Shown here: piece after piece, positions 1 through 26,322 of the stretch
Numbering within the stretch: the first letter of the stretch is position 1
Layout: each line of letters opens with the position of its first letter
DNA from: Microbacterium sp. B19
Lineage (GTDB): Bacteria; Actinomycetota; Actinomycetes; Actinomycetales; Microbacteriaceae
Assembly (NCBI RefSeq): GCF_000333395.1
Contig: NZ_BADA01000377.1
Span: 1-32,270, forward strand
DNA length: 32,270 nucleotides
Direction of reading: 5' to 3'
The notes under the pieces: generated by a model
What the model was told of the DNA's origin: nothing
What the model saw: only the letters and a program-made list of their open reading frames with translations
Databases searched by the model: none
Program-made: the position numbers and the translations under genes

Positions 1-103
1 GCACGTTTCCGTTCTGCTGAAGTGCCCTACCACGGGCGTCGAGGGGGAGTCGAGCTGAGGTCGACTCAGCGGGTGCGAAGGGGGAGGACGAAACCGACCG
101 TCC

Positions 104-238
104 GTGCGCGGCGAACTGCTCGCGCGCCTGGGCCGCGTCGAGGACGCCCGCGCGCAGCTGCTCGAGGCCGCGGGCCTCACCCGCAACGCCCGCGAGGCGG
201 CGCTGCTGCGCCGGAAGGCGCAGGCGCTGGGCGGCTGA
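104..238 (+). pseudogene. 3' remnant of an ECF (SigJ/DUF6596-type) sigma factor
   Basis: The 44 codons before the TGA at 236-238 read RGELLARLGRVEDARAQLLE and then a short arginine-rich tail. This resembles the C-terminal TPR-like end of large ECF sigma factors of the SigJ/DUF6596 group, where a helix of the form RADLLRRLGR precedes the stop. The frame has a TGA at 56-58, and the codons between 59 and 103 do not look like sigma-factor sequence. The sigma-2 and sigma-4 regions are therefore absent, and I read this as a remnant cut near position 103. GTG at 104 is simply the first possible start in frame. The family call rests on a short C-terminal stretch only. Confidence 0.45.
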
Positions 239-254
239 GGCTGCGCGGGGCGAC

Positions 255-341
255 GCGCGCAAACGTCGCAGATTTCCCCGTTCTTCGCAGGATTCGGCCG
301 GAAATCTGCGAAGAACCGCCGAATCTGCGAACTTTGCGCGC
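255..341. repeat. 87-bp nested palindromic element, type A copy 1
   Basis: The ends are GCGCGC, and four TCGCAG half-sites are present: direct at 266-271 and 285-290, inverted at 306-311 and 325-330. Spacing within each arm is exactly 19 bp and the whole is mirrored about position 298. The RNA or single strand would fold into a nearly continuous long hairpin. It aligns without gaps to the 87-bp copy at 25771-25857 (62 of 87 identical by hand count). It lies between the sigma remnant and the FMN reductase 3' end. Confidence 0.8.
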
Positions 342-384
342 GACGTCGGGGCCGGAGCCAAGCCCGACCCCGACGTGCGGAGCG

Positions 385-957
385 TCAGACCGCCGGAACC
401 GCCGCGGGAGCCGTGCGCTCGACGAGCGTCACGAGCGCCTCGATGATCGAGCGGAGGAACGCTGCCGTGCCCTCGTCGTTGACGGTGCCGTCCTCGCCGA
501 ACAGGCCGGGCGTCGACTGGATGTAGCCCTCGGGCTGTCCGAGCACGAGCGCGTTGTAGTGCAGGAGGACCGAGCGCAGGTGCTGCTGACCGGCGGCGGT
601 GGCGATACCGCCCTGGGAAGTGCCGACGACCGCGGTGGGCTTGTCGTTGAAGGACGCCTCACCGTAGGGACGCGCCGACCAGTCCAGCGCGTTCTTCAGC
701 ACACCGGGGATGGAGCGGCTGTACTCGGGGGTCACGATGATGACGCCGTCGGCATCCTCGATCGCGTTCTTGAAGTCCGTCGCGACCGGCGGGAAGTTCC
801 CGTCGTAGTCGGGCGAATAGAACGGGAGGTCCTTGATCGGGATCTCCTTCAGCGTCACGCCCTCGGGCGCGACCTTCTCGAGGGCTTTCGCCAGGCGGCG
901 ATTGATCGAGGTGCTGGAGATGCTTCCGACGATGTAGCCGATGGTGTGGTCGGTCAC
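385..957 (-). CDS. NADPH-dependent FMN reductase (flavodoxin-fold quinone/flavin reductase)
   Basis: This is a 190-residue flavodoxin-fold oxidoreductase of the NADPH-dependent FMN reductase family (FMN_red, SsuE/ArsH/ChrR relatives). The family reduces FMN, quinones, azo dyes or metals in the cytoplasm. The N-terminal GSISSTSINRRLAKAL is the FMN-phosphate loop, and TPEYSRSIPGVLKNALDW is the family's second hallmark. Length is normal. I chose the GTG at 955-957 because AGGAAGG lies 6 bases upstream and the protein then starts VTDHTIGYIVGS; a longer frame to 1014 adds a non-family extension. It is transcribed divergently from the histidine kinase at 1104. The physiological substrate cannot be read from sequence. 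Confidence 0.88.
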   Translation of the reverse strand: MTDHTIGYIVGSISSTSINRRLAKALEKVAPEGVTLKEIPIKDLPFYSPDYDGNFPPVATDFKNAIEDADGVIIVTPEYSRSIPGVLKNALDWSARPYGEASFNDKPTAVVGTSQGGIATAAGQQHLRSVLLHYNALVLGQPEGYIQSTPGLFGEDGTVNDEGTAAFLRSIIEALVTLVERTAPAAVPAV

Positions 958-5174: not shown

Positions 5175-5211
5175 GCGGGATGGATGCCATGGCTTCTGGC
5201 ATCCATCCCGC
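5175..5211. terminator. Perfect 14-bp bidirectional hairpin terminator
   Basis: The arms GCGGGATGGATGCC (5175-5188) and GGCATCCATCCCGC (5198-5211) are perfectly complementary around a 9-base loop. The hairpin lies between the convergent permease (stop 5153) and VOC gene (stop 5215). There is no U-tract, as is usual for actinobacterial terminators. The stem contains the heptamer GGATGCC that is over-represented across the window. Confidence 0.8.
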
Positions 5212-6287: not shown

Positions 6288-6338
6288 GGTGCGCGGTGAG
6301 TGGGGCGGGGCTGTGGGCGCCGGGTCGGGCGGCGCCGG

Positions 6339-6404
6339 CTCAGCGATCTGCACAAGCTCAGTGGAATCCGGCCCGATCGGACTGAGGGTGCGCGGATCGC
6401 TGAG
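6339..6404. repeat. 66-bp nested palindromic element, type C copy 1
   Basis: Four CTCAG half-sites are present: direct at 6339-6343 and 6357-6361, inverted at 6382-6386 and 6400-6404. Spacing is 18 bp in each arm, mirrored about 6371.5. The outer arms CTCAGCGATC/GATCGCTGAG are perfect over 10 bp. A fifth half-site (CTCAGCGATC) lies at 6439-6448. It matches 13811-13876 at 57 of 66 positions in the same orientation. It lies between the end of the fructan operon and the promoter of paralogue 1. Confidence 0.78.
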
Positions 6405-6507
6405 GTTGCGCGGCACGCGCGGGAGAGCCCGGCACCGACTCAGCGATCTGGCCCCGGCTTCTGCGCCCTGCAACAGCGCGCGGCGGGGATCTCGAATGAC
6501 ATACCGT

Positions 6508-13755: not shown

Positions 13756-13810
13756 TCATGCCTCTTCGACGCGGCCGATCCGGGCTACACCGACGGGTTC
13801 GTGACGTCGC

Positions 13811-13876
13811 CTCAGGGATCCACACAAACTCAGTGGCATCCGGCCCGATCGGACTGACATTGCGCGGATCGCTGGG
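13811..13876. repeat. 66-bp nested palindromic element, type C copy 2
   Basis: CTCAG half-sites lie at 13811-13815 and 13829-13833; degenerate inverted copies lie at 13854-13858 and 13872-13876, with 18-bp spacing and the same centre. A further inverted CTGAG at 13890-13894 continues the 18-bp period. Identity to 6339-6404 is 57 of 66. It lies between the operon promoter and the 3' end of paralogue 2. Confidence 0.75.
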
Positions 13877-13907
13877 GGTGCGCGAATCGCTGAGCAAGCG
13901 CGCCGGC

Positions 13908-21053: not shown

Positions 21054-21145
21054 GCGACGCGGGCCCGTGCGGGGCGTGGGGTCGTGGCATCCACCGCCCC
21101 TGCTCGGGGGCTCGCGCTTCCGGCGGCGTGCTGGCCCCCGCCACT

Positions 21146-21216
21146 GCCGAGAAACGCGATCTGCGGCGAGAAACGGTGGGAGAGAGCGTTTCTCGCGGTG
21201 AATCGCGTTTCTCGGC
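21146..21216. repeat. 71-bp nested palindromic element, type B
   Basis: Four GAGAAACG half-sites: direct at 21149-21156 and 21168-21175, inverted at 21187-21194 and 21206-21213. Spacing is exactly 19 bp in each arm and the element is mirrored about 21181. The outer arms are perfect over 15 bp, the inner over 10 bp. It fills most of the gap 21054-21295 between the rraA-like promoter and the 3' end of clpB. Confidence 0.85.
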
Positions 21217-21295
21217 GGCGTGGGTGGGGTGCTGGCGGAGCTCCGCGCGAGATAGCGGGGCACCCGGGGCGGGGAGCCCGCGCCCGGGTCCGGTG

Positions 21296-23547: not shown

Positions 23548-23598
23548 AGCAGCGCGGGTGGGCCGCGGCAATGGGGCCGGCGGCGGCGCGCGCCCCCG

Positions 23599-23677
23599 AG
23601 GCCGCGAGACTGCATCTAGCCGACGAAACCGCCGCACGCTGCAGTGGGCTTGTCAGCAGCGTGCAGTCTCGCGGCCT
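23599..23677. repeat. 16-bp perfect inverted repeat between clpB and the AraC gene
   Basis: AGGCCGCGAGACTGCA (23599-23614) and its exact complement (23662-23677) enclose 47 bases. A second, non-concentric pair, GCACGCTGC/GCAGCGTGC (23634-23642, 23656-23664), overlaps it. The general look resembles the nested elements elsewhere, but inner half-sites at 19-bp spacing are degenerate at best, so membership is uncertain. Confidence 0.6.
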
Positions 23678-23730
23678 GGGACCGGCCGGAGACGACCGAC
23701 GGATGCCAGCACCCCGCGCAATACCCGGAC

Positions 23731-24805: not shown

Positions 24806-25057
24806 ATGGCATACCTCATCGCTCTCGGCATCCTCTCCCTCATCGGGATCGTCTCCACCGCGTGGCTCCTGTACACCGACGGCTACGGCCGCGTGCCCAC
24901 CGACCCGCGCGGCCTCCCCGGCGGTGCCGAACGCACTGCACCCGAACCTCCCGCGGCGAAGGCCGCAGCAACACGAACCGCCGACGCCCGGGCCGCCGAG
25001 GGACGGACCCCCGCGGCCCCGGTCGCGCGGCGTCAGCGCCGAGCGGCGCGCGCGTAG
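24806..25057 (+). CDS. Small membrane protein of unknown function
   Basis: An 83-residue protein with a single N-terminal membrane helix (MAYLIALGILSLIGIVSTAW) followed by TDGYGRVPTDPRG and an alanine/arginine-rich, basic C-terminal tail that is probably cytoplasmic. The TDGYGR-P-D-R pattern resembles small conserved actinobacterial membrane proteins, with no known function. It overlaps the 3' end of the convergent glycosyltransferase gene by 25 bases. Codon third-position GC bias and the promoter support a real gene. Confidence 0.72.
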   Translation: MAYLIALGILSLIGIVSTAWLLYTDGYGRVPTDPRGLPGGAERTAPEPPAAKAAATRTADARAAEGRTPAAPVARRQRRAARA

Positions 25058-26322
25058 ACCGCGACCATCGCGGCCGTGCGCGAGGACTGCCGGAAGCGCT
25101 CCCCGATCGTCGGATCCACTGCGACCGGGGAGCCGGCGGCGATGTCGGCGGCCGCGCGCCGCAGTGTCTCCGCGAGCGCCGCGACCGAGGCATCCGCGAC
25201 GCTCCAGACTCCGGCGCCGAGTTCCGCGGCGATGTCGGGGTCGCTGACCACCGCGGGAGTCCCGAGCGACGCCGCTTCGAACACCGTCATCCCCTGCGTC
25301 TCGAAGCCGATCGAGGTCTGCACGACGGCGTCCGCCTCCGCGAGCCGCGCGAGGGTGTGGGCGTATGGCATCCGTCCCGAGAAGCGAATGGATGCCACCG
25401 GCCGCGAACGCTCCACGAGGCGCCGCGCCGCGCGGAGCTGCGCTCCGCCGCCGATGACCTCGACGTCCGCCTCAATTCCGGACGCGGCGACCGCCTCGAG
25501 GAAGGGCAGCAGGCGCTTCTCGGGGCTCATCCGGCCGATCCAGACGAAGCGCGGACGCCCGGGGGGACGCTCCCCCGGTCCGGCCGTGAGCGCCGCGTCG
25601 AGGATGTCGTCGTCGATGCCGTTCCACACCACGTCGACGGCCGCCTGACCGTCCGCACCGGGAACGGCGCCGTGGGCCTCGAGGCGCCGCGCGAAGTGCG
25701 CGGACGGAGCCGTGACCGCGGCCGACAGCTGCGCGAGGCGGCGGAGGTACGCCCAGCCGTCGGGGGCTTCGCGCGCGAACGTCGCAGAATCCGCCGAATC
25801 TCGCAGAATCCCCGCCGAATCCTGCGAGGAACGCGGGATTCTGCGAACATCACGCGCCCGCAGCAGCGCGGGCCGCAGCGCCCGCCGCGCCCACGCGTTC
25901 AGCACCCGCAGCACCAACCCCGGGAACGGCGCGGTCGCCTCGATGCCGACGTCGACGCGGTTGTGCATCGTGTGCACGACGGGGAGCCCGTGGCGTGCGG
26001 CGTAACGGTGGCCGATGAAGGCGCCCCAGAAGTCGGCCTGCACGTGCACGACGTCGACGGGCGGACGCCCCGCGAGGGCGGCATCCACGAAGCGATCTGT
26101 CCGGATGCCGGGCCACGACAGCGCGTACTCGCGATCGGGCGTGATCGGGATCGAGGGGAGGTCGACGTAGGCACGGTCGGTGGGAGCCGGCCGGTGCAGG
26201 CGCGGCGCGACGATCGTCACGGTGTGCCCGGCGCGTTCGAGGAACCGCCGCTGCAACCGCATCGACACCTGTGCGCCGCCCAGCGACTCGACGTGCTGGT
26301 CGGCGAACATCACCACGTGCAC
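25033..26322 (-). CDS. Glycosyltransferase family 4 protein with an in-frame palindromic element
   Basis: A 429-residue GT-B glycosyltransferase, probably transferring a sugar to a lipid or polysaccharide at the inner membrane face. The N-terminal acceptor domain starts MFADQHVESLGGAQVSMRLQ. The C-terminal donor domain has FVWIGRMSPEKRLLPFLEAV and the E-x7-E region FETQGMTVFEAASLGTP. Between the domains about 29 residues (RDVRRIPRSSQDSAG onward to FAREAP) are encoded by an 87-bp dispersed element at 25771-25857, inserted without breaking the frame. GTG at 26322 has GGAG upstream within the previous gene's end; the two genes are 4 bases apart. The insertion falls at the domain linker, which may be why it is tolerated. 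Confidence 0.87.
   Translation of the reverse strand: MHVVMFADQHVESLGGAQVSMRLQRRFLERAGHTVTIVAPRLHRPAPTDRAYVDLPSIPITPDREYALSWPGIRTDRFVDAALAGRPPVDVVHVQADFWGAFIGHRYAARHGLPVVHTMHNRVDVGIEATAPFPGLVLRVLNAWARRALRPALLRARDVRRIPRSSQDSAGILRDSADSATFAREAPDGWAYLRRLAQLSAAVTAPSAHFARRLEAHGAVPGADGQAAVDVVWNGIDDDILDAALTAGPGERPPGRPRFVWIGRMSPEKRLLPFLEAVAASGIEADVEVIGGGAQLRAARRLVERSRPVASIRFSGRMPYAHTLARLAEADAVVQTSIGFETQGMTVFEAASLGTPAVVSDPDIAAELGAGVWSVADASVAALAETLRRAAADIAAGSPVAVDPTIGERFRQSSRTAAMVAVYARAARR
25771..25857. repeat. 87-bp nested palindromic element, type A copy 2, inside a coding region
   Basis: Half-sites TCGCAG at 25782-25787 and 25801-25806, CTGCGA at 25822-25827 and 25841-25846: exactly the same offsets as in 255-341. 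The ends again are GCGCGC/CGCGC. The length (87 = 29 codons) keeps the glycosyltransferase frame open. Confidence 0.8.

Follow-up and report, generated by a model that had tools for sequence, protein, structure and literature searches.

Palindrome families with four half-sites at 18-19 bp spacing are paired with DUF559 genes in Microbacterium and may form a two-part system

We studied a stretch of 32,270 nt from Microbacterium sp. B19 (in the following called the window), which is contig C200 of a draft genome (3.65 Mb, 576 contigs, 87% complete). The window carries palindromes of four types, here named A to D, whose coordinates are compiled in Table 1 along with the reading frame that hosts the second A-type copy (A2).

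Table 1. Palindromes of the window and the reading frame hosting copy A2.
Feature	Position	Strand	Details
A-type palindrome, word TCGCAG	251..345 (core 255-341)		half-sites 266-271, 285-290, 306-311, 325-330; spacing 19 bp
C-type palindrome, word CTCAG	6326..6417 (core 6339-6404)		half-sites 6339-6343, 6357-6361, 6382-6386, 6400-6404; spacing 18 bp
C-type copy, decayed	13805..13885 (core 13811-13876)		right half-sites altered; aligned to 6326 element
B-type palindrome, word CGAGAAACG	21135..21227 (core 21146-21216)		half-sites 21148-21156, 21167-21175, 21187-21195, 21206-21214; spacing 19 bp
D-type palindrome, outer word GAGACTGCA	23596..23680		inner word degraded in this copy
Glycosyltransferase ORF, host of A2, outside the system	25033..26322	-	Pfam Glyco_transf_4 / Glycos_transf_1
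A-type palindrome (A2), word TCGCAG	25771..25857		half-sites 25782-25787, 25801-25806, 25822-25827, 25841-25846; spacing 19 bp; in frame inside glycosyltransferase ORF

A concentric word scan of the window, i.e., a scan for four mirrored words of equal spacing, yields exactly three mirrors with words of at least 6 bp, namely the two TCGCAG mirrors and the B-type mirror, compared to none in 20 dinucleotide shuffles. For 5-bp words, 14 raw matches are found (shuffle mean 0.75). Among these is the CTCAG mirror at 6339; the raw matches at 2363, 14319, 31694 and 31712 were taken as chance. Scoring of palindromes gives six with a score of at least 15 in the window and none in 6 shuffles, the six including the D-type element, in whose arm no 18-19 bp direct repeat is present, and a short hairpin at 5175-5211. 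When folded as single-stranded DNA and compared to 200 shuffles each, the elements at 255 (z -6.9), 21146 (z -8.2), 25771 (z -3.7), 6339 (z -3.8) and 23596 (z -4.4) fold better than their shuffles, and no significant hairpin is obtained for the element at 13811 (z -0.46). The latter is homologous to the element at 6339 (local alignment score 50 over 80 columns) and lacks the four-site layout because its right-hand half-sites are degraded.

A first-pass annotation of this DNA had listed five four-site mirrors, all with a spacing of 18-19 bp that was said to be kept to the base. Four of them stand as described and the fifth, at 13811-13876, has decayed; to say that the spacing is kept to the base goes slightly too far, since types A and B use 19 and type C uses 18. 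The D-type palindrome at 23596-23680 was absent from that list. The same annotation had described the two A-type copies as equally long (87 bp) and alignable without gaps at about 71%, which we can reproduce with 62 of 87 identical positions. Apart from these elements, the C-type outer arm CTCAGCGATCTG is repeated exactly at positions 6439-6450, 35 bp past the C-type element, where it is perhaps the stub of a second C-type copy.

Further copies, as anticipated in the first-pass annotation, exist elsewhere in the genome. Beside the two of the window, we find 12 A-type copies on eight other contigs, i.e., on C432, C227, C489 (two), C97, C139 (three, in tandem), C550, C348 (two) and C571, of which the C432 copy is identical to the window's own (same stretch). 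D-type copies lie on contigs C200, C349, C42, C348, C432 and C522, and a whole-genome search for the exact four-site pattern GAGAAACG returns the window copy alone. With regard to the genus, A-type DNA was found in 7, B-type DNA in 10 and D-type DNA in 13 of 119 genomes; as about 7 candidates per genome were scored for these three types, the copy numbers within a genome are lower bounds. The palindromes form hairpins, are dispersed and come in families, as is known from REPINs. The relation to contig C432 also touches the assembly: window positions 98-740 (643 bp) are identical to an internal part of C432, where both sides differ. Since a comparison to the relative G009 joins the left flank of C432 with the window from position 98 on, positions 1-97 may be a misjoin.

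We also compared the A2 site to its orthologous sites. The element is present in G009 and absent in G053, G025 and G012, a presence/absence pattern that the first-pass annotation had proposed to look for; in four further relatives the site holds other, variable sequence. The borders of the insertion are not sharp and run through a variable stretch, such that a target-site duplication is not resolved. The A2 stretch is 92% identical between G009 and this genome, like its flanks, a comparison of element and flank that could be read for A2 only of six (four of the other five were without one anchor and C139 was without a usable element alignment). Six of the seven A-type sites of G009 are shared with this genome, four of them by both flanks and those of C97 and C550 by one flank only, which implies that movement is slow or past. 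Active movement of the elements is presumed, and the shared sites speak against its being fast. Within the glycosyltransferase ORF, the in-frame palindrome insertion adds length between the two domains.

The partner gene of the palindromes is located outside the window, elsewhere in the genome. On contig C489, two A-type copies bracket one gene, whose product matches DUF559 (PF04480), named by Pfam as a protein of unknown function, and additionally REase_MTES_1575 below the curated cut-off. PF04480 has six matches in this genome, one of them just under the cut-off. The DUF559 genes on C489, C221, C469 and C338 each lie between two strong palindromes of the same type, with a word that differs from gene to gene; the gene on C304 has weaker palindromes with one word common to both sides, and the gene on C437 has a palindrome on one side only. 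PF04480 genes are present in 39 of 39 genus genomes examined for them.

To quantify this arrangement within the genus, we collected 152 DUF559 genes, of which 147 are non-identical after removal of duplicates and 139 have at least 200 bp on both flanks. For 92 of the 139 genes, left and right flank match each other (local score at least 20) compared to 6/695 mismatched pairs, and none of 63 control stretches located 1.24-1.5 kb away does so. A partner gene flanked by copies of the same palindrome family, which is a hallmark of REPIN/RAYT systems, is found here for these 92/139 genes. Palindromes with a score of at least 13 are present on both sides of 66 genes, on one side of 55 and on neither side of 18. 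In terms of density, 81 palindromes fall into the 23.3 kb within 150 bp of DUF559 genes vs. 22 into the 578 kb beyond 1 kb, i.e., 3.48 vs. about 0.04 per kb (about 90-fold). As a further control, 30 loci of GNAT genes show 4 palindromes and no same-type pair, compared to 30 palindromes for 30 DUF559 loci, 8 of which show a same-type pair.

Positions and spacing of the flanking elements are constrained, too. Searching 260 bp on either side and using heuristic gene starts, the distance from the end of the upstream element to the inferred start has a median of 101 bp (IQR 95-114, n=69), and the distance from the stop codon to the downstream element a median of 18 bp (IQR 6-40, n=83). DUF559 genes of the genus are commonly part of a unit that runs from a palindrome through a leader of about 100 bp and a single gene of about 280 codons to another palindrome about 20 bp further on. 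The two palindromes of a unit mostly share a type that sets them apart from other units, and palindromes of that type are also scattered over the genome with no gene attached. To assess the spacing on data independent of the window, we used 144 flanking palindromes (score at least 15, length at least 60 bp), of which 116 are scorable, i.e., their arm contains a direct repeat of 5 bp or longer. The best arm spacing is 18 or 19 for 98/116, compared to 31/261 for shuffled arms, such that the layout first described for the window recurs in palindromes next to DUF559 genes.

Most window elements lie in gaps between annotated ORFs, where coincidental terminators or low-complexity hairpins of a GC-rich genome might be expected. 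We consider this explanation practically negligible given the shuffled windows without any equal-spacing mirror of at least 6 bp, the GNAT control and the excess of matching flanks at DUF559 genes.

Given this genus-wide pairing, we related the window's types to individual DUF559 genes. The A2 element (25771-25857) is matched best by the sequences flanking the DUF559 gene of G000:C489. The C-type element matches both flanks of the DUF559 genes in loci L106 (G009) and L062 (G006). D-type elements bracket DUF559 genes in L355, L343 and L360, and the element arms of L355 and L343 agree best at a shift of 19. Here, a profile (HMM) search near 30 D-type loci found one DUF559 gene and a tblastn search with that gene's protein two more, which the HMM had missed, and HMM negatives are therefore weak. 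Four stretches of this genome with D-type copies were inspected, and a gene of the D subfamily was not found in them. For the B type, no DUF559 gene was found near the elements of 30 loci (26 different places), and neither did tblastn find one in the 30 B loci and 20 further stretches (12 of them B-type), the queries being the D-type protein and every third of the collected DUF559 proteins. As far as sequence matches tell, three of the window's four families (A, C and D) are matched to a DUF559 gene and B is without one.

We then investigated whether elements and proteins vary together, using 133 genes that passed a length filter and considering elements similar for scores of at least 17. Similar elements are shared by 1-4% of the gene pairs with a protein identity below 45%, by 16% at 50-55%, by 40% at 60-70%, by 75% at 70-80% and by 20/20 pairs above 80%. 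Within six locus groups for which both neighbors are shared, the two flanks of the same gene match in 39/43 cases, while orthologous flanks match in 107/206 (upstream), 82/206 (downstream) and 79/412 cases (crossed); in one of the six groups all flank comparisons matched alike. Copies within one unit thus tend to stay alike while the word drifts. Among A-clade relatives, for instance, the word drifts from TCGCAG to TCGGAG. Palindrome word and nuclease thus appear to evolve together in a lock-and-key fashion, as judged from these identities and flank scores. In a scan for specificity determinants, partial correlations did not exceed 0.17 for single residues or 0.01 for domains, i.e., no region stood out.

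The co-occurrence of gene and DNA across genomes points in the same direction. A full-length A gene (at least 65% identity) is present in four genomes, 3/4 of which have A-type DNA compared to 4/115 others (Fisher p 5e-4). A partial A-gene match (66% over residues 101-291) is present in genome G100, where A-type DNA was not detected; when this genome is counted, the numbers change to 3/5 vs. 4/114 (p 1e-3). For a looser A-clade definition (E<=1e-60), A-type DNA is found in 5/40 vs. 2/79 genomes (p 0.04). On the level of single genomes, G009 has A-type DNA at seven sites and G064 has A-type elements, and for both no A-clade gene was found at E<=1e-60. G019 encodes a 65% identical gene, and A-type DNA was not found there at the threshold used.

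To get an idea of what the partner protein might do, we inspected its predicted structure. An AlphaFold2 model based on 54 sequences (mean pLDDT 93, pTM 0.83) suggests that an AbiEi-like winged helix is followed by an EDxHD/Vsr-like nuclease in one fusion protein. For residues 193-289, the homing endonuclease I-Bth0305I is matched with Z 13.7 (rmsd 1.9, 94 residues) and Vsr with Z 11.2, i.e., this part is predicted to take the fold of EDxHD homing endonucleases. The fit of residues 10-191 to AbiEi (6y8q_A) is looser (Z 8.7, rmsd 5.1 over 175 residues); AbiEi is nevertheless the first Foldseek match (E 1.3e-5), in accordance with an AbiEi fold. On the profile level, DUF559 is matched in 54/54 aligned relatives and Pfam AbiEi_4 in 15/54. 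The alignment of the 54 proteins shows E196, D222, D234 and D248 to be invariant and H239 to be nearly so, positions among which we take the residues of the EDxHD motif to lie.

A Y1/RAYT domain is not matched at E<=0.1 in the six PF04480 proteins of this genome. This bears on the possibility that the palindromes are classical REPINs moved by a Y1/RAYT transposase encoded elsewhere, and that DUF559 genes merely ride along with a preference for such sites. The palindromes do resemble REPINs in being dispersed, hairpin-forming and equipped with family-specific words (PMC3116915). Nevertheless, across genes and species the type of the element goes with the DUF559 protein, which a passenger would not predict, and together with the missing Y1 match in the six proteins this renders the passenger explanation very improbable.

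DUF559 loci are mostly found at conserved sites, i.e., the 60 named loci for which 3.5 kb of sequence are available to either side group into 19 sites, and DUF559 proteins of up to 74% identity are found at sites without a shared flank. We studied the aminotransferase/murB site of contig C221 in this genome and 20 relatives. As the relatives were picked from 117 matching genomes for their spans, the following numbers are not frequencies. This genome, G025, G039 and G072 carry a full unit of about 1.1 kb with room for one gene between the flanking palindromes; the identity of the gene is 64-76% over 281-295 residues. G022 shows two gene fragments between two palindromes, G009 and G019 a single palindrome, and G053, G062, G103, G071, G092 and G069 other inverted repeats; G083 holds other sequence and seven of the 21 genomes are bare (22-50 bp only). 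At this site, arrays of palindromes of another type are found in two loci, namely of three in L307 (G062:C12:275800-276950) and of two in L310 (G103:C168:18950-20100).

The series of full unit, broken gene, solo palindrome and bare site is also what one would observe for a selfish homing or addiction unit, whose nuclease cuts DNA without the protected palindrome arrangement, such that losing the unit is penalized or homing copies it, and whose solo palindromes are recombination scars between flanks; the closest nuclease fold being that of a homing endonuclease fits as well. Such scars, however, cover the solos at unit sites and not the many same-type palindromes at unrelated sites. Furthermore, with 7/21 genomes bare, absence of the unit is tolerated. 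We thus regard a homing or addiction unit as rather improbable.

Taking the sequence comparisons together, palindromes and DUF559 genes are paired, share one geometry, co-vary and are present or absent at orthologous sites. We therefore propose, and consider it fairly probable, that each palindrome family forms with one DUF559 protein a two-part system similar to RAYT/REPIN, in which the nuclease spreads or maintains the palindromes in trans. Herein, the N-terminal AbiEi-like winged helix would bind the four half-sites, probably with one protomer each, the C-terminal EDxHD/Vsr-like nuclease would nick or cut the DNA at the palindrome, and repair would copy the palindrome, and rarely the whole unit, to new places. 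An element of 65-95 bp with four sites would suit four protomers of an AbiEi/EDxHD fusion. The individual steps differ in how much we trust them: specific half-site binding by the N-terminal part is very likely, nicking or cutting at the palindrome by the DUF559 nuclease is likely, and for a spread of the palindromes via this cut the chances appear about even.

The main alternative to the two-part system assigns the palindromes the role of operators, i.e., the DUF559 protein would be an autoregulator like AbiEi and the dispersed copies would make up a small regulon or serve to organise the chromosome. In line with this, AbiEi is matched by the N-terminal part, AbiEi and Rv2827c bind inverted repeats (PMC7319586), and the narrow distance distribution of the upstream elements would be expected for an operator. 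On the other hand, an operator is not expected right behind the stop codon, where a same-type element is found as well. Dispersed copies inside a coding gene, the tandem array of three, and whole units being present or absent at one orthologous site do not fit either, and the conserved nuclease domain is left unexplained. Overall, we consider operators to be unlikely.

The first-pass annotation had offered two guesses, i.e., a mobile REPIN- or MITE-like family or sites for a protein of diversifying specificity. The two-part system would make both one phenomenon, which is partly supported: dispersion in many copies and presence/absence at orthologous sites hold for the former guess, where active movement is what we infer from them, and each word tracks a particular DUF559 protein as to the latter, with binding being presumed.

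Considering known systems, REPIN/RAYT is similar in organization. According to PMC3116915 and PMC3733652, it shares dispersed families of imperfect palindromes, an own partner gene per family beside the same palindromes, a suggested co-evolution of partner and word, tandem arrays and a partner that is mostly vertically inherited at the species level. Yet the partner here is an AbiEi-like winged helix with an EDxHD/Vsr-like nuclease and not a Y1 HUH transposase, and the REP doublet is replaced by four half-sites that are spaced at 18-19 bp. As the partner gene is not a Y1 transposase, the system is not a member of REPIN/RAYT.

MITEs are short non-autonomous inverted-repeat elements, for which a larger gene-bearing unit has the same ends. 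This is alike here, but the ends are whole palindromes rather than terminal repeats and the unit's gene is DUF559.

Regarding the protein parts, I-Bth0305I and the Vsr-like DUF559/REase_MTES_1575 nucleases share the C-terminal fold and the conserved E, D, H and D residues. In contrast to EDxHD homing endonucleases, no intron or intein is seen, the gene is bracketed by palindromes of its own type, and there are multicopy non-coding relatives. I-Bth0305I forms a dimer on its target, which spans nearly 60 bp (PMC3943268). The AbiEi antitoxins of type IV toxin-antitoxin systems (S. agalactiae AbiEi, Rv2827c) are alike in the fold of residues 10-191 and in having paired or fourfold inverted repeats as DNA sites: the inverted repeats bound by AbiEi are paired and 23 bp long, while Rv2827c occupies four of them, located upstream of its own operon (PMC7319586). 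They are unlike in that here a nuclease is fused, sites are dispersed and the murB-site units provide, between their flanking palindromes, no room for a second gene such as that of an AbiEii nucleotidyltransferase toxin.

Searches of the open-access literature found no paper connecting DUF559 with palindromes in its title or abstract. The MTES_1575 Vsr-type domain is named in a giant HEPN fusion (PMC3710099), and a paper on a Caulobacter Vsr-like protein mentions DUF559 once (PMC12907096).

Beyond the genus, PF04480 is found in 59/148 genomes of the class (E<=1e-6), and 3/30 class-wide DUF559 loci outside the genus show a same-type palindrome pair, i.e., the arrangement is not confined to Microbacterium and is rarer elsewhere. 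In the respective loci L403, L419 and L420, two of which are also outside the family, the same-type palindromes are about 1.0-1.3 kb apart. That AbiEi-winged-helix/EDxHD nucleases constitute a new class of mobilisers, which read four half-sites at 18-19 bp spacing and spread the palindromes in trans, with a very large number of protein-word pairs diversified independently in Microbacterium and some in other actinobacterial families, has in our view somewhat less than an even chance. If true, DUF559 gains a role as a convergent counterpart of RAYT/REPIN, and if the nuclease does spread the palindromes, RAYT-type partnerships between a bacterial chromosome and short selfish palindromes would have arisen at least twice with unrelated enzymes. 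Already the link itself gives the DUF559 family a DNA target, such that its function becomes directly testable, and the many protein-word pairs are readily available for working out how AbiEi-like winged helices encode their specificity.

Finally, the 7-mer GGATGCC/GGCATCC occurs at 79 places in the window compared to 7.7 expected from dinucleotide shuffles, and it is also seen in the loops of several DUF559-flanking palindromes.
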